Assembly (NCBI RefSeq): GCF_005877905.1
Contig: NZ_SWDV01000036.1
Location: 1 to 64,000 of the forward strand
Length of the DNA: 64,000 nt
Reading direction: 5' to 3'
Source: Pseudomonas nicosulfuronedens
GTDB taxonomy: Bacteria; Pseudomonadota; Gammaproteobacteria; Pseudomonadales; Pseudomonadaceae
The position numbers and the translations under genes are program-made. Of this stretch, positions 995 through 58,565 are shown one piece after another (position 1 is the first letter of the stretch; every line of letters begins with the position of its first letter). The notes below the pieces were generated by a model. The model was given only the letters and a program-made list of their open reading frames with translations. It was not told where the DNA came from and ran no database searches.

Positions 995-3085
995 ATGACG
1001 CGCGGGAAACGAATCTGCCTCTGGAGCTTCACGGGGTTCATCGCGGTGATCGCCGCACTGGTGGTGTTCATTGCCACCTTCGACTGGAACCGGGTGAAGC
1101 CGACCATCAACGAGAAGGTGTCGGCCGAGCTGGGGCGCCCCTTCGCCATCAATGGCGACCTGCAGGTGTTCTGGCGCACGGAACCGGCCGAGGGCGGCTG
1201 GCGCGCCTATGTACCGTGGCCGCACTTCAGCGCCGCCGACATCACCCTGGGCAACCCCGACTGGGCGGCCGGCAAGACGCGCTCGCCCAACTTTGCGAGC
1301 CTGGAAAAAGTCGAGTTCCGCCTCGCACCGTTGCCGCTGCTGTGGCAAACCGTGAACATCCCGCAGATCGTCCTCACCCGCCCCAGCGCCGACCTGCTGC
1401 GCCTGGCCGATGGTCGTGCGAGCTGGACCTTCGAGCTGCCGAAGCAGGAAGAGGACCCCGGCGCCCCGGCCGAGCCGTCGCCCTGGAAGCTGGATATCGG
1501 CGAGATCGGCTTCGACAAGGGCAGCGTCACCCTCGACGACCAGCGCCTGAAGACCCGCCTGGAGCTGCTGGTGGACCCACTCGGCAAACCGGTGCCGTTC
1601 GGCGAGCTGGCGGGCAAGGCACTGGCCGGCGGCGACAAGGCCGAGACCCAGGACTACGTGTTCGGCTGGAAGCTCAAGGGCCAGTACAAAGGGCTGCCGC
1701 TCAATGGCTCGGGCAAGGTTGGCGGCATGCTCGCCCTGCAGGATGCCGCCAAGCCCTTCCCGGTGCAGGCCGAGGTTTCCGCCGGCAGCACCCGCGCGAA
1801 CATCGTCGGCACCCTGGTCGACCCGCTGAACCTCGGTGCGCTGGACCTGCGCCTGAAACTGGCCGGCACCAGCATGGCCAACCTGTTTCCGCTGACCGGC
1901 GTGACCCTGCCCGATACGCCGGCCTACGAGACCGACGGCCGCCTGAAAGCCGAGTTGCACGATTCCGCCGGCGCGCAATTCCACTACGAGAATTTCAACG
2001 GCAAGGTCGGTGACAGCGATCTGCATGGCGACCTGGTGTTCGTCAATCGCCAGCCGCGGCCCAAGCTGTCGGGCAAGCTGCGCTCGGACCAGCTGCGCAT
2101 GGCCGACCTCGGTCCGCTGATCGGCGCCGACTCCAACAAGGAGAAGCAGGCGCGCGGCCAGAGCACCCGCCAGCCGGCGGACAAGGTGTTGCCGGTGGAG
2201 GAGTTCCGCACCGACCGCTGGCGCGCCATGGACGCCGACGTGGAATTCACCGGCAAGCGCATCGTGCACAGCGACAAGCTGCCGATCAGCGACCTCTATA
2301 CCCACCTGGTGCTCAACGACGGCCTGCTGACCCTGGAGCCGCTGCGCTTCGGCGTGGCCGGCGGCACGCTGGACTCGCACATCCGTCTGGATGGCGGCAA
2401 GACGCCGCTGCAGAGCAAGGTCCAGTTGCAGGCGCGCAGCTTCAAGCTCAAGGAACTGTTCCCCAGCTTTGCGCCGATGCAGTCCAGCTTTGGTGAGCTG
2501 AATGGCGACGCGGCCATCAGCGGCACCGGCAATTCGGTGGCGGCCATCCTGGCGGGCGCCAACGGCGAGATGAAGCTTCTGATCAACGACGGGCGCATCA
2601 GCCGCAGCCTGATGGAAATCGCTGGACTCAACGTGGGCAACTACGTGGTGAATAAACTGTTCGGTGACGACGAGGTGAAGATCAACTGCGCGGCTGCCGA
2701 CGTGGGCATCACCAACGGTCTGGCCAAGCCAAGGGTGTTCGCCTTCGATACCGAGAACGCGATCATCACGGTGGACGGCACGGCCAACTTCGCCACCGAG
2801 CAGCTGGACCTGGACATCACTCCGCAGAGCAAGGGTGTGCGTATCTTCTCCCTGCGCTCGCCGCTCTACGTGCAAGGCACCTTCAAGAACCCGAAGGCGG
2901 GTGTGCATGTGCTGCCGCTGGCTGCTCGCGGTGCGGGGATGGTCGCCCTTGGCGTGGCGGTGGCTCCGGCGGCGGCGCTGCTGGCGTTGATCGCGCCGAG
3001 CAAGCAGGACGACAACCAGTGTGCTGCGCTGTTGCAGCAGATGAAGCAGCCGTCGAAGGCGCCGGCGCCCGCCAAGCGCAAGTAA
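995..3085 (+). CDS. AsmA family protein
   Basis: A 696-residue AsmA-type protein. An N-terminal membrane anchor (about residues 8-28, rich in Ile/Val/Ala) is followed by a long periplasmic beta-rich region. The DWNRVKPTINEKV stretch right after the anchor is typical of AsmA/YhdP-like bridge proteins, which are implicated in phospholipid movement to the outer membrane. A short hydrophobic segment lies near the C-terminus (about residues 645-665), followed by a basic tail. The start at 995 has GGGAG eight bases upstream; the open frame continues to 848 but without a ribosome binding site. The gene is monocistronic and followed by a REP-like hairpin. Family membership is clear; the precise cargo is not known. 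Confidence 0.85.
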   Translation: MTRGKRICLWSFTGFIAVIAALVVFIATFDWNRVKPTINEKVSAELGRPFAINGDLQVFWRTEPAEGGWRAYVPWPHFSAADITLGNPDWAAGKTRSPNFASLEKVEFRLAPLPLLWQTVNIPQIVLTRPSADLLRLADGRASWTFELPKQEEDPGAPAEPSPWKLDIGEIGFDKGSVTLDDQRLKTRLELLVDPLGKPVPFGELAGKALAGGDKAETQDYVFGWKLKGQYKGLPLNGSGKVGGMLALQDAAKPFPVQAEVSAGSTRANIVGTLVDPLNLGALDLRLKLAGTSMANLFPLTGVTLPDTPAYETDGRLKAELHDSAGAQFHYENFNGKVGDSDLHGDLVFVNRQPRPKLSGKLRSDQLRMADLGPLIGADSNKEKQARGQSTRQPADKVLPVEEFRTDRWRAMDADVEFTGKRIVHSDKLPISDLYTHLVLNDGLLTLEPLRFGVAGGTLDSHIRLDGGKTPLQSKVQLQARSFKLKELFPSFAPMQSSFGELNGDAAISGTGNSVAAILAGANGEMKLLINDGRISRSLMEIAGLNVGNYVVNKLFGDDEVKINCAAADVGITNGLAKPRVFAFDTENAIITVDGTANFATEQLDLDITPQSKGVRIFSLRSPLYVQGTFKNPKAGVHVLPLAARGAGMVALGVAVAPAAALLALIAPSKQDDNQCAALLQQMKQPSKAPAPAKRK

Positions 3086-3100
3086 AAGGTGGGTGGCCCT

Positions 3101-3126
3101 GTAGGAGCGAGCAAGCTCGCTCCTAC
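3101..3126. repeat. single REP-like palindrome
   Basis: A perfect palindrome with 12-bp arms (GTAGGAGCGAGC / GCTCGCTCCTAC) around AA. It is the single-unit version of the paired REP-like repeats found at five other places in this window. It lies between the convergent AsmA-family and GyrI-like genes and may help stop transcription. Confidence 0.85.
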
Positions 3127-3147
3127 GAAAGGCCGGGTCGGTGTTCG

Positions 3148-51529: not shown

Positions 51530-51681
51530 GCCGCCCTGCTGCTTGTCTGAAGGGGCAAGCGACTCTCCCCTGTCGAGAACGGGTTCCAGGCGATGTGCCC
51601 CGCACATGGCCGGCAAGCCCTTTCCCTAGATGGGAGATTTATCGGTGCGTCCTGGGCGCGTCGTCGGATTTTCCTAAACTT

Positions 51682-51699
51682 ACCGCCAACCACGGCGGT
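51682..51699 (+). other. leader hairpin upstream of speA
   Basis: ACCGCC-AACCAC-GGCGGT forms a 6-bp hairpin in the 285-bp gap before speA, surrounded by TCCTAAACTTACC. Its role is unknown; it could be part of an untranslated leader. Confidence 0.3.
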
Positions 51700-51814
51700 C
51701 AACACGGCAACGTCATCAGGCCCGGCTAGGTTTACACCACCAGGCCTTGACGACTCACCCGCACGCCGGGCGGGCGCCTGCATACATTCGCGCAATTTGA
51801 GGAGACCACCACGC

Positions 51815-53728
51815 ATGGCCGCTAGACGGACCCGCAAAGACGACGGCAGCAACTGGACCGTGGCAGACAGCCGCAGCATCTACGGAATTCGCCACTGGGG
51901 CGCGGGCTATTACGCCATCAACGACGCCGGTAACGTGGAAGTTCGCCCGCAGGGCGCCGATGCCCAGCCGATCGATCTGCACGGGCTGGTCGAGCAGCTG
52001 CGTGAAGCGGGCCTGTCGATGCCGCTGCTGGTGCGCTTCCCGGACATCCTTCAGGACCGCGTGCGTAAGCTCACCGGCGCCTTCGATGCCAACATCGCGC
52101 GCCTGGAATACGGCAGCCGCTACACCGCGCTGTACCCGATCAAGGTGAACCAGCAGGAAGCGGTGGTGGAAAGCATCATCGCCACCCAGAACGTCTCCAT
52201 CGGCCTGGAAGCCGGTTCCAAGCCCGAGCTGATGGCCGTGCTGGCCCTGGCGCCCAAGGGCGGCACCATCGTTTGCAACGGTTACAAGGACCGCGAGTTC
52301 ATCAAGCTGGCGCTGATGGGGCAGAAGCTCGGCCACAACGTGTTCATCGTGATCGAGAAGGAATCCGAGGTGCAGCTGGTGATCGAGGAAGCCGCCGTGA
52401 TCGGCGTGCTGCCCCAGGTCGGTTTGCGCGTGCGCCTGTCCTCGCTGGCGTCCTCCAAGTGGGCCGATACCGGTGGCGAGAAGGCCAAGTTCGGCCTGTC
52501 CGCCGCGCAACTGCTGTCGGTGGTCGAGCGCTTCCGCGCTGCCGGCCTGGACCAGGGCGTGCGCCTGCTGCACTTCCACATGGGCTCGCAGATCGCCAAC
52601 CTGGCCGACTACCAGCACGGCTTCAAGGAAGCCATCCGCTACTACGGCGAACTGCGCGCCCTCGGCCTGCCGGTGGACCACGTGGACGTCGGTGGCGGCC
52701 TGGGCGTGGACTACGACGGCACCCACTCGCGCAACGCCAGCTCGATCAACTACGACATCGACGACTACGCCGGTGTCGTGGTCGGCATGCTCAAGGAATT
52801 CTGCGACGCGCAGGGCCTGCCGCATCCGCATATCTTCTCCGAGAGTGGCCGCGCGCTGACCGCGCACCACGCGGTGCTGATCACCCAGGTCACCGACGTC
52901 GAGCGCCACAACGACGAAGTACCGAAGATCACCGACCTCGCCGAACAGCCGGAGATCGTCCAGTGGCTGGCCGACCTGCTCGGCCCGACCGACGCCGAGA
53001 TGGTCACCGAGACCTACTGGCGCGCGACCCACTACATGAGCGACGCCGCCGCGCAGTACGCCGAGGGCAAGATCAGCCTCGCGCAGAAGGCCCTGGCCGA
53101 GCAGTGCTACTTCGCCATCTGCCGTCGCCTGCACAACCAGCTCAAGGCGCATCAGCGTTCGCACCGCCAGGTGCTCGACGAGCTGAACGACAAACTGGCC
53201 GACAAGTACATCTGCAACTTCTCGGTGTTCCAGAGCCTGCCCGACACCTGGGCCATCGGCCAGGTGCTGCCGATCCTGCCGATCCACCGCCTGGGCGAGG
53301 AACCGACCCGCCGCGCGGTACTGCAGGACCTGACCTGCGACTCCGACGGCAAGATCACCCAGTACGTCGACGAGCAGAGCATCGAGACCAGCATGCCGGT
53401 GCACGACGTGAAGGAAGGCGAGGACTACCTGATCGGCACCTTCCTGGTCGGCGCTTACCAGGAGATCCTCGGCGACATGCACAACCTGTTCGGCGACACC
53501 GACTCGGTGAACGTCTACCAGAACGCTGACGGCAGCTACTACCACGCCGGCATCGAGACCCACGACACCATCGAGGACATGCTGCGCTACGTGCACCTGT
53601 CGCCCGAGGAGCTGATGACCCACTACCGCGACAAGGTGGCCGGGGCCAAGCTCACCGTGCGCGAGCGTACCCAGTACCTCGATGCGCTGCGCCTGGGGCT
53701 GACGCGTTCGGCTTACCTGTCGTCCTGA
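51815..53728 (+). CDS. speA: biosynthetic arginine decarboxylase SpeA
   Basis: A 637-residue PLP-dependent biosynthetic arginine decarboxylase producing agmatine. The PLP lysine is in YPIKVNQQ (Lys110). [16 protein letters not shown] (about 290), [12 protein letters not shown] (about 345) and the catalytic segment with CDSDGKIT (about 510) are conserved. The ATG at 51815 follows TTGAGGAG; the frame stays open upstream without a start signal. With the agmatinase at 44154 it gives a two-step arginine-to-putrescine path. A strong terminator follows. Confidence 0.97.
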
Positions 53729-53892: not shown

Positions 53893-54591
53893 TCAGGTGT
53901 CGCGTAATTCGAAGGTCGGGAACAGTGCATGCAGCTCCCGCCAGAGATCAGATGCGCCATGAGGAGACGGCGTGGCGATCAGCTCAGGATCGAGCTGCCG
54001 CTCGCTGCGGGCCAGTTGCACCACGAAGTTATCCACACCGGTCTCGCGCAGGCGCAAAGCCAGCCGTCGCAATCGCTGCAGATCGAACAACTGCCAATGC
54101 ACTGTCGTCCTGCACTCGTGCTCCACACCGCTCGCCAGCAACAGTTCCAGGCTGCGCCAGTTGGCCAGCCCACTGCGTTTCACGCCGGTCGTGGCGTCCA
54201 CGTCCTCGGCCAATCCCTTCACGTCGAAGCCGACCCAGTCGGCATGGGGCAGCGCGCGGGCGAAAGCCTCCGGGCGGATGCCGGCGCTGTGCAGCCCGGC
54301 GCGAAAACCCATCGCGCGTACGCTGGCCATGGCTTGCGGCAAAGCGCCCTGCAGCGTTGCCTCGCCGCCGCTGAATACCACCGCCTGCAGCAGGCCCTGG
54401 CGTCGCCGGAGGAACGCGAGGATGTCGTCCCAGTGGATTTCGTGCTCGCCCCTCGGCGCAATCAGCTCCGGGTTGTGGCAGTAGCGGCAGCGCCACGCGC
54501 AGCCCTGGCAGAACAACACGCAGGCGAGCAATCCGGGATAGTCCAAGGTGGTCAGGGGCACCAGGCCCCCGACCCTGAGCGTACTGTTCAT
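53893..54591 (-). CDS. nrdG: anaerobic ribonucleotide reductase-activating protein NrdG
   Basis: A 232-residue radical SAM enzyme that installs the glycyl radical on class III ribonucleotide reductase. The [4Fe-4S] cluster motif CxxxCxxC is CAWRCRYC (about residues 31-38), followed by HNPELI and the SAM-binding GGE (VVFSGGEATLQ, about 72). Its ATG overlaps the TGA of the preceding small ORF (ATGA), so it is the third gene of nrdD-(radical tail)-nrdG. It is larger than E. coli NrdG (154 aa), in line with the NrdG type found with Thermotoga-like NrdD. Confidence 0.92.
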   Translation of the reverse strand: MNSTLRVGGLVPLTTLDYPGLLACVLFCQGCAWRCRYCHNPELIAPRGEHEIHWDDILAFLRRRQGLLQAVVFSGGEATLQGALPQAMASVRAMGFRAGLHSAGIRPEAFARALPHADWVGFDVKGLAEDVDATTGVKRSGLANWRSLELLLASGVEHECRTTVHWQLFDLQRLRRLALRLRETGVDNFVVQLARSERQLDPELIATPSPHGASDLWRELHALFPTFELRDT

Positions 54592-54734
54592 CGCGTCTCG
54601 CGGAAGTGACGGCGCTCGCGGTGCTCGGATTGCTTGCCGGCGTTGAATGCCGTCACCGGGCGGTGATAGCCCATTACGCGGGTCCACACCTCGCAGCGCT
54701 GGCGCTGGCTTTCGGGTAATTGGTTGGCGGTCAT
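54588..54734 (-). CDS. separate glycyl-radical tail of anaerobic ribonucleotide reductase
   Basis: A 48-codon ORF between nrdD and nrdG. It begins with MTANQLPESQRQR and contains RVMGYHRPVTAFNAGKQSE, matching the glycyl-radical motif (R-V-x-G-Y-x-x-P-V-x-x-W/F-N-x-G-K) that normally ends single-chain NrdD. The radical glycine would be Gly33 (NAGK). It has a strong ribosome binding site (AAAAGGAG, 8 bases from ATG). It lies in the same reading frame as nrdD, 42 bases beyond the nrdD TGA, and its TGA overlaps the nrdG ATG. The main NrdD chain lacks this motif, so the two polypeptides should assemble, as the spare-part protein GrcA does with pyruvate formate-lyase. A nonsense mutation in an originally fused gene is the alternative, but the dedicated ribosome binding site argues for a true split. 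Confidence 0.85.
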   Translation of the reverse strand: MTANQLPESQRQRCEVWTRVMGYHRPVTAFNAGKQSEHRERRHFRETR

Positions 54735-54776
54735 CGGTGGTGCTCCTTTTTGCGTGGATGAAAGTTGAAGTGGAAA

Positions 54777-56795
54777 TCAGCGGGCACAACAGCTCCTGGT
54801 GTCGGCTTTTTGCAGTGCGGCTTCGTCGCACCGCGGGCAGAACTCGTGTTCGCCGGCGAGGTAGCCGTGGACCGGGCAGATGGAGAAAGTCGGAGTCACT
54901 GTCAGGTAGGGCAGGCGGAAGCGCCCGAGAGCGGTGCGCACCAGGGTCTTGCAGGCCTCGGCGCTGGAGATGCGTTCGGCCATGTACAGGTGCAGCACCG
55001 TGCCGCCGGTGTATTTGCACTGCAGGGCGTCCTGCAGTTCCAGGGCCTCGAACGGATCGTCGGTGAGACCCACCGGCAACTGCGAAGAGTTGGTGTAGTA
55101 GGGCGCATCCGGCGTGCCGGCCTGGAGGATGTCCGGGTGGCGCTTCTGGTCCTCACGGGCGAAGCGGTAGGTGGTGCCTTCGGCTGGCGTGGCTTCCAGG
55201 TTGTAGAGGTGCCCGCTGTCTTCCTGGAAGCGCACCAGCCGCGCCCGTACATGGTCCAGCAGCTCCAGCGCCATCTGCCGGCCGACCTCGGTGTGCAGGC
55301 CTTCGCGGTCATCGGTGAAGTTGCGCAGCATCTCGTGCAGGCCGTTCACGCCGATGGTGGAGAAGTGGTTGCGCAGGGTGCCCAGGTAGCGCTGGGTGTA
55401 GGGGTACAGCCCGGCGTCCATGTGCTGCTGGATGACCTTGCGCTTGACCTCCAGACTGTCGAAGGCCAGCTCCAGCAGATAGTCGAGTTGCGCGTAGAGG
55501 GCGGCAGCGTCGCCGCGATGACGGTAGCCCAGGCGTGCGCAGTTGAGGGTCACCACGCCCAGCGAGCCGGTCTGCTCCGCCGAGCCGAACAGCCCGTTGC
55601 CGCGCTTGAGCAGTTCGCGCACATCCAACTGCAGGCGGCAGCACATGGAGCGCACCTGGTTGGGCTGCATGTCCGAGTTGAGGAAGTTCTGGAAGTACGG
55701 CAGGCCGTAGCGCGCGGTCATCTCGAAGAGGCGCGTGGCGTTGTCGCTGTCCCAGGGGAAGTCGTGGGTGATGTTGTACGTCGGGATCGGGAAGGTGAAC
55801 ACCCGGCCGTGAGCGTCGCCGGCCTGCATCACCTCGATGTAGGCGCGGTTGATCAGGTCCATCTCGCTTTGCAGATCGCCATAGGCGAAGGGCATTTCCA
55901 CGCCGCCGATATAGGGAATCTGTTCGCGCAGGTCCTCCGGGCAGACCCAGTCGAAGGTCAGGTTGGTGAAGGGCGTCTGGGTGCCCCAGCGCGACGGCAC
56001 GTTGAGGTTGTAGATGAACTCCTGCAGCGCCTGGCGCACCTGTTGATAACTCAGGTTGTCCTGGCGCACGTAAGGCGCGAGGTAGGTGTCGAACGAGCTG
56101 AAGGCCTGGGCGCCGGCCCACTCGTTCTGCAGGGTGCCGAGGAAATTGACCATCTGCCCCAGGGCGCTGGAGAGGTGCTTCGGCGGCCCGGCCTCGACCC
56201 GTCCCGGCACGCCGTTCAGGCCTTCGCTGAGCAAGGTGCGCAACGACCAGCCGGCGCAGTAGCCGGCGAGCATGTCCAGATCGTGGATGTGCAGGTCGGC
56301 CTCGCGGTGGGCGATGGCGATGCCCTCGCTGTACACCTCGTCCAGCCAGTAGTTGGCGGTGACCTTGCCGGACACGTTGAGAATCAGCCCGCCCAGGGAA
56401 TAGCCCTGGTTGGCGTTGGCGCGCACCCGCCAGTCTTCCCGCGAGAGGTATTCGTTCATTGACGCGGCGACGTCCACCAGCGTCTTGCGCTCGCGGCGCA
56501 GGCGGCCGTGGCGTTCGCGGTAGACAATGTAGGCGCGCGCGGTGGGGTAGTGGCCGGCTTCCATCAGAGCGCGCTCGACCACGTCCTGCACCTGCTCCAC
56601 GTCCAGGTCGTTTTGTGCCGGCAGGCGGGCCACTACGCGACGGGTCAGCTCCTGCGCATGGGGCGCGGTGAATTCGCCGCTGGCCTCGCCGGCGGCGGCA
56701 ATGGCTCGTTCGATCTTGCTCGAGTCGAAGGCGGCGGAGCTGCCGTTACGCTTGCGCAGGCTGGTGGGAAGAGGGGCGGTCCGTGTCGGAGGCAT
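54777..56795 (-). CDS. nrdD: anaerobic ribonucleoside-triphosphate reductase NrdD (catalytic part)
   Basis: A 672-residue class III ribonucleotide reductase, making dNTPs without oxygen. An N-terminal ATP-cone (about residues 12-100; KRNGSSAAFDSSKIERAI) binds effector nucleotides. The ten-stranded barrel includes EGIAIAHREADLHIHDLDM, PSRWGTQTPFTNLTFDW and FLNSDMQPNQVRSMCCRLQLD with candidate catalytic cysteines. Near the end is the zinc ribbon CPVHGYLAGEHEFCPRC, after which the protein stops at CCAR. Single-chain homologues continue with a glycyl-radical tail; here that is a separate ORF. The ATG at 56795 was chosen because it precedes the ATP-cone; the upstream in-frame ATG lies inside an NrdR-like box. 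ANR- and NrdR-type sites lie upstream. In PAO1 nrdD-nrdG are elsewhere (PA1919-PA1920). Confidence 0.93.
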   Translation of the reverse strand: MPPTRTAPLPTSLRKRNGSSAAFDSSKIERAIAAAGEASGEFTAPHAQELTRRVVARLPAQNDLDVEQVQDVVERALMEAGHYPTARAYIVYRERHGRLRRERKTLVDVAASMNEYLSREDWRVRANANQGYSLGGLILNVSGKVTANYWLDEVYSEGIAIAHREADLHIHDLDMLAGYCAGWSLRTLLSEGLNGVPGRVEAGPPKHLSSALGQMVNFLGTLQNEWAGAQAFSSFDTYLAPYVRQDNLSYQQVRQALQEFIYNLNVPSRWGTQTPFTNLTFDWVCPEDLREQIPYIGGVEMPFAYGDLQSEMDLINRAYIEVMQAGDAHGRVFTFPIPTYNITHDFPWDSDNATRLFEMTARYGLPYFQNFLNSDMQPNQVRSMCCRLQLDVRELLKRGNGLFGSAEQTGSLGVVTLNCARLGYRHRGDAAALYAQLDYLLELAFDSLEVKRKVIQQHMDAGLYPYTQRYLGTLRNHFSTIGVNGLHEMLRNFTDDREGLHTEVGRQMALELLDHVRARLVRFQEDSGHLYNLEATPAEGTTYRFAREDQKRHPDILQAGTPDAPYYTNSSQLPVGLTDDPFEALELQDALQCKYTGGTVLHLYMAERISSAEACKTLVRTALGRFRLPYLTVTPTFSICPVHGYLAGEHEFCPRCDEAALQKADTRSCCAR

Positions 56796-56854: not shown

Positions 56855-56895
56855 AATCTAACGGCTTCGTCCGTAGGAAAATTGACCTCGGTCAA
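56855..56895 (-). promoter_or_regulatory. ANR/FNR-type promoter of nrdD
   Basis: TTGAC-CTCG-GTCAA (56882-56895) is a close variant of the ANR/FNR box TTGAT-N4-ATCAA. Its centre lies about 41 bp upstream of a start site predicted by the -10-like TAGATT (56855-56860, minus strand). This is the class II activator arrangement and would switch nrdD on when oxygen is low. Confidence 0.6.
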
Positions 56896-57134: not shown

Positions 57135-58565
57135 TCAGGTCAGCAACGGCGCCAGCCGCTCTGCCAGGCGCCCGGAGAACTGCTCGTCGGTGACATTGGT
57201 GAAGCTCATGATCAGTGCCGGCTCGCGCCTGGCCTCCACGCACCAGGCGTTCAGCGCTTGCAGACCGAGGCCCTCGGCGTGGGCGCGGCGGGCGACGGCG
57301 AGGTCGTCCTGGTCCAGCGCACCGATCAAGTGCAGCCCGCCGGGCGTGTCGGCGAAGCGCAGGCGTTCGCCCAGGCGCTCTTCCAGCGCCTTGCGCAGCC
57401 ACTGGCGGCGCTGGGCATAGAGCGCGCGGGTGCGCTTGAGGTGACGGGCGAAATGGCCCTCCTGCATGAAATCGCAGAGGGTCGCCTGCAGCAGTTCCGC
57501 GCAGCCGGAGGAGAACACCTGCTGCGCACGTACGAAGTCTTCCACCAACCCCGCCGGTACGACGAGGTAGCCCAGGCGCAGGGCAGGATAGAGCACCTTG
57601 CTGAAGGTGCCGGTGTAGAGCACGCGGCCGGCGCGGTCTAGGCTTTTCAGCGCTGGCAGCGGGAAGCCGGCGTAGCGGTACTCGCTGTCGTAGTCGTCCT
57701 CGACTATCCACGCGCCGCTGCTGGCGGCCCAGTCCAGCAGGGCCAGACGGCGCGGCAGGCTGAGGGCGACGCCGGTGGGACTCTGCTGCGACGGGGTGAC
57801 CAGCGCGAAGCGAGCATCCGGCGCACGGGCGATACCGTCCTCCACGCGCAGGCCATCGGCGTCCACCGCGACCGGCACTGGCACGCCGCCGGCCCGGCGC
57901 AGCAGTTCACGGCCGCGCGGGTAGCCGGGGTCTTCGTGCCAGTAGCGTTGGCCGGGTTCGAGCAGGGTGCGGCTGATCAGGTCCAGTGCACCCTGGTAAC
58001 CCGCGCAGATGAATACCTGTGCAGGGTCGCAGGCGATGCCACGGGAGATTCCCAGGTAGCCGGCGACCGCCTCGCGCAGCGGCCCGTAACCGCAAGGCTC
58101 CGGGTAAGCCAGCATGGACGCGCTCTGCTGTCGCAGACGCCGCGCGCACAGCCGCGACCAGAGCGCGCGGGGGAAGGCGTCCAGCGCCGGCACGCCGAGC
58201 TGGAACGGCCGCAGGGTCGGACCGTGGGCGATCAGGCCGGGCAGGGCGCGTTCGACGGTATCCGGCGCAACGAGCACGGGCGGTGCAGCGGCGGTGCGCC
58301 CCGCCAGTTGCGGCGATACCACGGTGCCCGCCGGTCCGCGTGCCAGCAGGTAGCCCTCGCTGGTCAGCAACTGATAGGCCAGCTCCACCGTGCCGCGCGC
58401 CACGCCCAGCTCTCCGGCGAGCCCACGCACCGGTGGCACGCGCTCGCCGGGGCGCAGCGCGCCACGGGTAATGGCATCGCGGATGCGCTCGTAAAGCTGG
58501 CGATAGATCGGCAGCTCGTGGCTCGGGTCCAGCGGCTGGCGGAAGGAATCGAGGGGCGAGGTCAT
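57135..58565 (-). CDS. MocR-type GntR regulator with aminotransferase-like domain
   Basis: A 476-residue MocR/PdxR-type regulator. The N-terminal GntR winged helix (residues 14-85; LPIYRQLYERIRDAI...GYLLARGPAGTVV) is fused to a fold-type I aminotransferase-like domain with the PLP lysine in GTFSKVLYP (Lys323) and EDDYDSEYRY. Such proteins sense PLP or PLP adducts and control neighbouring vitamin B6, GABA or amino-acid genes. No obvious target gene adjoins; the divergent gene is cbpA, 263 bp away. Target unknown. Confidence 0.9.
   Translation of the reverse strand: MTSPLDSFRQPLDPSHELPIYRQLYERIRDAITRGALRPGERVPPVRGLAGELGVARGTVELAYQLLTSEGYLLARGPAGTVVSPQLAGRTAAAPPVLVAPDTVERALPGLIAHGPTLRPFQLGVPALDAFPRALWSRLCARRLRQQSASMLAYPEPCGYGPLREAVAGYLGISRGIACDPAQVFICAGYQGALDLISRTLLEPGQRYWHEDPGYPRGRELLRRAGGVPVPVAVDADGLRVEDGIARAPDARFALVTPSQQSPTGVALSLPRRLALLDWAASSGAWIVEDDYDSEYRYAGFPLPALKSLDRAGRVLYTGTFSKVLYPALRLGYLVVPAGLVEDFVRAQQVFSSGCAELLQATLCDFMQEGHFARHLKRTRALYAQRRQWLRKALEERLGERLRFADTPGGLHLIGALDQDDLAVARRAHAEGLGLQALNAWCVEARREPALIMSFTNVTDEQFSGRLAERLAPLLT

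Follow-up and report, generated by a model that had tools for sequence, protein, structure and literature searches.

Class III ribonucleotide reductase (RNR) is a textbook single-chain glycyl radical enzyme. In a 64,000-nucleotide stretch of Pseudomonas nicosulfuronedens DNA (contig NZ_SWDV01000036.1, positions 1 to 64,000; hereafter, the window), the genes for this enzyme lie on the minus strand as three open reading frames (ORFs): nrdD (54777 to 56795, with its ATG at 56795 and a 672-aa product), a 48-codon ORF with its own ATG (54588 to 54734), and nrdG (53893 to 54591), whose 232-aa product is a predicted radical S-adenosylmethionine (SAM) activase (TIGR02495 NrdG2, 208 bits, plus a Radical_SAM match). 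Judged from its sequence, the locus has the traits of a class III RNR, namely, an NRDD core with an ATP-cone, an adjoining radical-SAM activase, and a radical segment that is placed on a separate chain.

The nrdD product matches the Pfam model PF13597 (NRDD; 568 bits) only at profile positions 2 to 529 of 562 and the NCBIfam model PRK08270 with 1117.9 bits, while the small ORF matches PF13597 at profile positions 531 to 562. The two matches tile one Pfam model, and the protein is therefore cut between the zinc ribbon and the radical loop. NrdD ends with the residues CPVHGYLAGEHEFCPRCDEAALQKADTRSCCAR, after a zinc ribbon (C640-x2-H643-x9-C653-x2-C656, followed by Asp657; 54828 to 54878), at a TGA stop codon (54777 to 54779). 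A 42-nt spacer (54735 to 54776) with the ribosome-binding site AAAAAGGAG at 54743 to 54751 separates this stop from the small ORF, which is in the same frame as nrdD and whose own TGA overlaps the nrdG start (ATGA). An earlier, sequence-only reading of this DNA had described the same arrangement, and our analysis bears it out: NrdD ends after the zinc ribbon without the glycyl-radical motif, and the motif lies on a 48-codon ORF that has its own ribosome-binding site, starts in frame 42 bases past the TGA, and overlaps nrdG. The same reading mistakenly placed the radical on Gly33 (FNA-G-K). By homology, the radical glycine is most likely Gly22 of the small protein (RVM-G-YHRP; codon 54669 to 54671). 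This residue corresponds by count to residue 681 of Escherichia coli NrdD, which we take to be the radical site of that enzyme. In a sequence alignment of a fused relative it corresponds to Gly621 of Thermotoga maritima NrdD, the named radical site of an enzyme for which a Cys3His zinc site is also described (PMC4493059).

To place the locus among its relatives, we assembled 162 distinct cores (≥40% identity), the window's own among them; of these, 148 are split, 10 are fused, and 4 were left without a call (L209, which is split on reading; L053; and two partial loci). A nonsense codon within a known gene usually means a sequencing error or a decaying gene, and one relative (L229, in the draft genome G124) does have an in-frame stop inside the radical motif of its small gene. 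Nevertheless, the layout is common to all 14 nrdD-bearing genomes of the genus, with conserved residues on both sides of the stop, and the small gene is under strong purifying selection (ratio of nonsynonymous to synonymous differences [pN/pS] of 0.062 among 13 of the 14 genus sequences, those of equal length). The sequence-only reading had also named a second full-length nrdD elsewhere, with the window copy decaying, as a possible outcome; a profile search of the genome returned no second NRDD match. Error and decay are thus refuted by conservation, and we see virtually no chance that either accounts for the locus. Read-through of the TGA, by selenocysteine insertion or suppression, would yield a single chain, and in the window the small ORF is indeed in frame with nrdD, with no other stop between them. 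However, the nrdD stops of the 148 split cores are TGA in 122, TAA in 19, and TAG in 7 (TAA or TAG in 26 of 148), and the small gene is in a different frame from nrdD in 111. In genome G855, roughly 9 kb containing ORFs on the opposite strand separates nrdD from the small gene and an nrdG. Moreover, the small ORF starts at an ATG of its own, preceded by a conserved ribosome-binding site: across the genus the spacer varies in length and sequence, and AGGAG is retained in 14 of 14. Frame and distance refute read-through for the family, and we regard it as extremely unlikely. A selenocysteine-containing NrdD was rejected as well, because the same stop codon and frame counts show no conserved in-frame TGA. 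In three loci (L037 to L039), the spacers between nrdD and the small gene are about 230 to 480 nt long and contain repeat-like sequence.

Whether the split is fixed across the genus had been left undecided by the sequence-only reading. We found that it is: NRDD is present in 14 of 25 genomes and is split in all 14. In the family, NRDD is present in 112 of 298 genomes; 110 core matches stop short of profile position 546 or run across a stop codon, part of these 110 split calls being made from core matches only, and the remaining two are a fused gene (in G295) and a contig-edge fragment (in G098). In one genome among the 110, G242, a plasmid carries an additional nrdD, which is fused and of a different type. 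When 43 loci from the genus and family were read, 41 were split, L028 was fused, and L053 had an in-frame stop in its small gene. Matches were found in 28 of 274 genomes of the class (20 split, 6 fused, and 2 too weak or partial) and in 57 of 398 genomes of the phylum (12 split as in the window, 2 split in another way, and the others fused or weak). Among named loci retrieved via the small protein, 79 of 80 have the split layout, including those of Pseudomonas, Stutzerimonas, Marinobacter, Halomonas, Kangiella, Thiobacillus, and Massilia; the NrdD of Pseudomonas aeruginosa, PA1920, has 675 aa. In the exception, L135 (a betaproteobacterial draft genome), the zinc-ribbon motif is absent from the 3 kb upstream of the radical domain (3001 to 3144), which adjoins a phage neck/tail-completion gene. 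Plasmid records of Cupriavidus necator H16, Sulfuricurvum (Campylobacterota), Bradyrhizobium, and Shinella show the split layout, too. In RefSeq records of split loci, the small gene is also named nrdD. The locus of Cupriavidus metallidurans CH34 is likewise split, and NrdD and NrdG of C. metallidurans are listed as Rmet_5137 and Rmet_5139, with the intermediate number skipped (PMC2864759), which is consistent with an overlooked small gene.

The split form has its own sequence signatures. Cys14 of the small protein (codon 54693 to 54695) lies eight residues before Gly22, and all 148 split pairs have a Cys at this position (Gly-8) and an Asp following the final Cys of the zinc ribbon. In seven fused relatives with short linkers, Gly-8 is occupied by Thr, Ala, or Leu, and the residue that follows this zinc Cys is Gly; 18 fused viral enzymes have Thr (17) or Asn (1) at Gly-8, and all of them have Gly after the last zinc Cys. 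Five other fused sequences (L028, L199, L204, L221, and L222, the latter two as sequences only) keep the Cys at Gly-8 and have somewhat longer linkers and Ala or Gln after the zinc Cys. The first three are placed inside the split clade, with strong support for L028 only, and the Cys-keeping fused forms look like re-fusions. In L028, from the Pseudomonas-family genome G295, a short linker joins the two parts, and the ORF seemingly has no ATP-cone. Two candidate roles for cysteines were rejected: zinc binding by the Cys at Gly-8, because the C/H/C/C set also occurs in fused relatives without that Cys, and redox pairing of the NrdD tail cysteines (SCCAR) with the small protein, because these cysteines are not kept outside Pseudomonas-like sequences. 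Two near-identical genomes (L196 in G906 and L212 in G842) have a second, unrelated split, in an NrdD of the E. coli-like kind: the core stops after the zinc ribbon and a 60-aa ORF with the radical motif overlaps nrdG.

Taken as a whole, the locus very probably encodes an obligate two-chain class III reductase of the NrdDh type, whose radical subunit docks in trans. By analogy with homologous single-chain enzymes, NrdD would supply the ATP-cone, barrel, and zinc ribbon, and the separately translated subunit of about 50 residues would supply the glycyl-radical loop. The small chain would dock by the zinc ribbon with its loop inside the barrel; NrdG would place the radical on Gly22, which would then initiate catalysis in the NrdD active site. 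Because O2 would cleave the 48-residue chain only, we propose that activity could be renewed by synthesis and docking of a new one. C. necator H16 provides support for the function of a split enzyme in vivo: its locus is split, and its NrdDG is reported to be essential for complete denitrification (PMC2864759).

The sequence-only reading had likened the small protein to GrcA. GrcA/YfiD and T4 Y06I are spare-part radical domains of pyruvate formate-lyase (PFL), the only two validated spare parts according to PMC8683613, which adds that ones for other glycyl radical enzymes may exist. The likeness is reasonable: the small protein, too, stands alone and copies the radical segment that glycyl radical enzymes have at their C terminus, activation would be by the activase of the parent enzyme, and one of the two PFL spare parts is phage-borne; the solo viral domains described below give indirect support. 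It does not hold in one respect, since PFL has its own radical domain, whereas the NrdD core has none (there is no other NRDD piece in the genome) and the small protein is the enzyme's only radical domain. The small chain should therefore serve as an obligate subunit rather than only as a spare. In addition, it belongs to PF13597 and not to PF01228, the PFL/GrcA-type glycyl-radical domain. In function it would resemble an autonomous glycyl radical cofactor, although it falls outside the GrcA family. PF01228 has no match in the genome, and on this ground the small protein was rejected as a PFL partner.

Other known systems resemble the locus in part. The split class II enzyme NrdJa/NrdJb of P. 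aeruginosa is an RNR from the same bacterial groups, made of two chains that are encoded in one operon and are both needed, but it belongs to another RNR class, and NrdJb does disulfide exchange and carries no radical (PMC4520616). A 2015 paper called the split class II enzyme the sole split non-viral reductase. With group NrdDh4 of the NrdDh subclass (PMC4493059), the window's enzyme shares the Cys3His zinc ribbon and the MCCR motif (NrdD residues 384 to 387; 55635 to 55646), and it may share a Phe near the tip of the finger loop. The motif, which replaces SCCR, is invariant from M384 to R387 in 26 aligned rows; the Phe was placed by sequence (GLF403GS), in an alignment that PMC4493059 itself calls uncertain. 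As a difference, the passages of that paper describe no split, and its main text contains none of the terms "split," "truncated," and "open reading." Six phages also have nrdD in pieces; the cases described in the passages of PMC3653736 involve introns, inteins, or unexplained fragmentation, and no stand-alone radical domain is mentioned there. We found no description of a split class III radical subunit in the literature searched; Jordan 1999 and Siedow 1999 lie outside it and may have noticed the separated glycine.

Radical domains of this type also appear to occur alone in viral DNA. When an alignment of eight small proteins was used to scan IMG/VR, 210 encoding stretches emerged, of which the best 80 were kept. 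No NrdD core was detected within ≤6 kb on each side of these 80 loci by tblastn or hidden Markov model (HMM) search, which recovered the core in 5 of 5 and 4 of 4 control loci, respectively. No nrdG was detected by tblastn over the same distance either, a weaker claim because the query found three control loci and missed the E. coli-type nrdG of L170. Less than 1 kb of upstream DNA was available in 13 of 76 solo loci. All 30 longer records of the 80 (21 to 108 kb, completeness not established) contain only the radical-domain part of NRDD. The Cys at Gly-8 is present in 75 of the 76 solo loci with a clear motif, a share that is high partly because one of the two search patterns requires it. The solo domains show a pN/pS of 0.27 (53 pairs), and all four that were checked match phrog_4132, a family whose function is not known. 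Of six contigs whose neighboring genes were checked, five have matches there to portal, head, tape-measure, tail-fiber, or further virion families, and the sixth has a helicase. A core scan of viral DNA gave 24 loci, 18 fused and three split with the small domain downstream (one of them, L317, with Cys at Gly-8); the core and small-domain scans differ in sensitivity, and their counts do not form a ratio. In a cultured-phage collection, three queries found no solo domain; the matches were two records annotated there as anaerobic reductase and a further one, MT835493, in which nrdD is fused. Five solo loci (L243, L249, L291, L293, and L308) have frames with Cys-rich stretches upstream of the motif, although these are stop-to-stop frames whose translation there is unsure. 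In the bacterial draft genome G563, a normal split operon is accompanied by a solo domain on contig C3 (L228:4306-4491), beside RecT, YqaJ, and an RNR-barrel gene that is NrdJ-like by eye.

These observations suggest that the solo viral domains are phage-borne spare parts, like T4 Y06I for PFL. We tentatively propose that the radical tip could be an exchangeable cartridge, a disposable subunit in O2-exposed bacteria that many phages carry alone to start or revive the host reductase; the rescue of a host enzyme by phage would follow from this analogy. The IMG/VR contigs come from uncultivated sources with no host or host partner known, and the solo domains might have a role other than repair, such as inhibiting or capturing host NrdD. 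Such a role seems rather unlikely given their pN/pS and their retained radical-loop residues, the latter partly forced by the search patterns. The resemblance of the solo copies to spare parts also bears on the bacterial protein, which might be purely a repair part for a 672-aa core that holds its radical in another way. The unusual active site of the Thermotoga NrdDh (PMC4493059) would be in keeping with this. We nevertheless consider it improbable, because the genome has no other NRDD radical segment and fused relatives carry exactly this segment at their C terminus.

Several findings weigh against the two-chain reading. A first structural model, built from 26 closer rows, was poor (predicted local distance difference test [pLDDT] score of 62, with residues 670 to 735 below 50). 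A read-through model from 30 aligned rows reached a pLDDT of 81.9 and superposes on T. maritima NrdD over 141 to 735, radical segment included, but because it depicts one continuous read-through chain and its alignment includes fused homologues, it is no test of docking in trans. The stop in the small gene of L229 belongs here as well, as do the split viral loci L318 and L331, which have no Cys at Gly-8, and the fused nrdD of plasmid records from Actinomyces oris, Geoalkalibacter, and Acidiphilium. Many of the loci in the comparison were retrieved via the small protein, so that unbiased shares come only from the genus, family, class, and phylum searches. The trees require six state changes; five of them are forced by starred branches in the quick tree, but only three in the careful tree. 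Tree support for L199 and L204 inside the split clade is weak, and the fused L211 and L142 sit among split relatives. A single clade of split and Cys-bearing fused rows was rejected (approximately unbiased [AU] test, P = 7.75e-5). This rejection and the placement of L211 and L142 indicate that the history was not one simple event. The rejection may stem mainly from the fully supported pairing of L211 with the split Sulfuricurvum.

The two-chain form is fixed in Pseudomonas-type bacteria and common in other proteobacteria with the enzyme, and the long nrdD of this group would thus encode an enzyme without its radical site. Expression of nrdD and nrdG without the small gene should therefore fail. 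The system makes it testable whether replaceable radical parts exist in glycyl radical enzymes besides PFL. The solo viral copies would represent a very small auxiliary gene for DNA-precursor synthesis at low O2, and if the radical tip is indeed an exchangeable cartridge, phrog_4132 would be a family of RNR spare parts.

Of the remaining features, the ATP-cone (PF03477, 72.7 bits) spans NrdD residues 14 to 97 (56505 to 56756, minus strand). An Anr/Dnr (FNR-type) box, TTGACCTCGGTCAA (56882 to 56895, no strand assigned), lies 87 bp upstream of nrdD and is the sole match within the window to TTGA[CT]-N4-[GA]TCAA, which we take to be the Anr/Dnr consensus. The nrdDG genes of P. aeruginosa are under the control of a Dnr box (PMC5645315). 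By eye, the flanking ORFs resemble the arginine decarboxylase SpeA (51593 to 53728) and a MocR-type regulator (57135 to 58565). In two loci of genome G431 (L164 and L168), the nrdD core is interrupted after GTQ by an apparent intein, again by eye.

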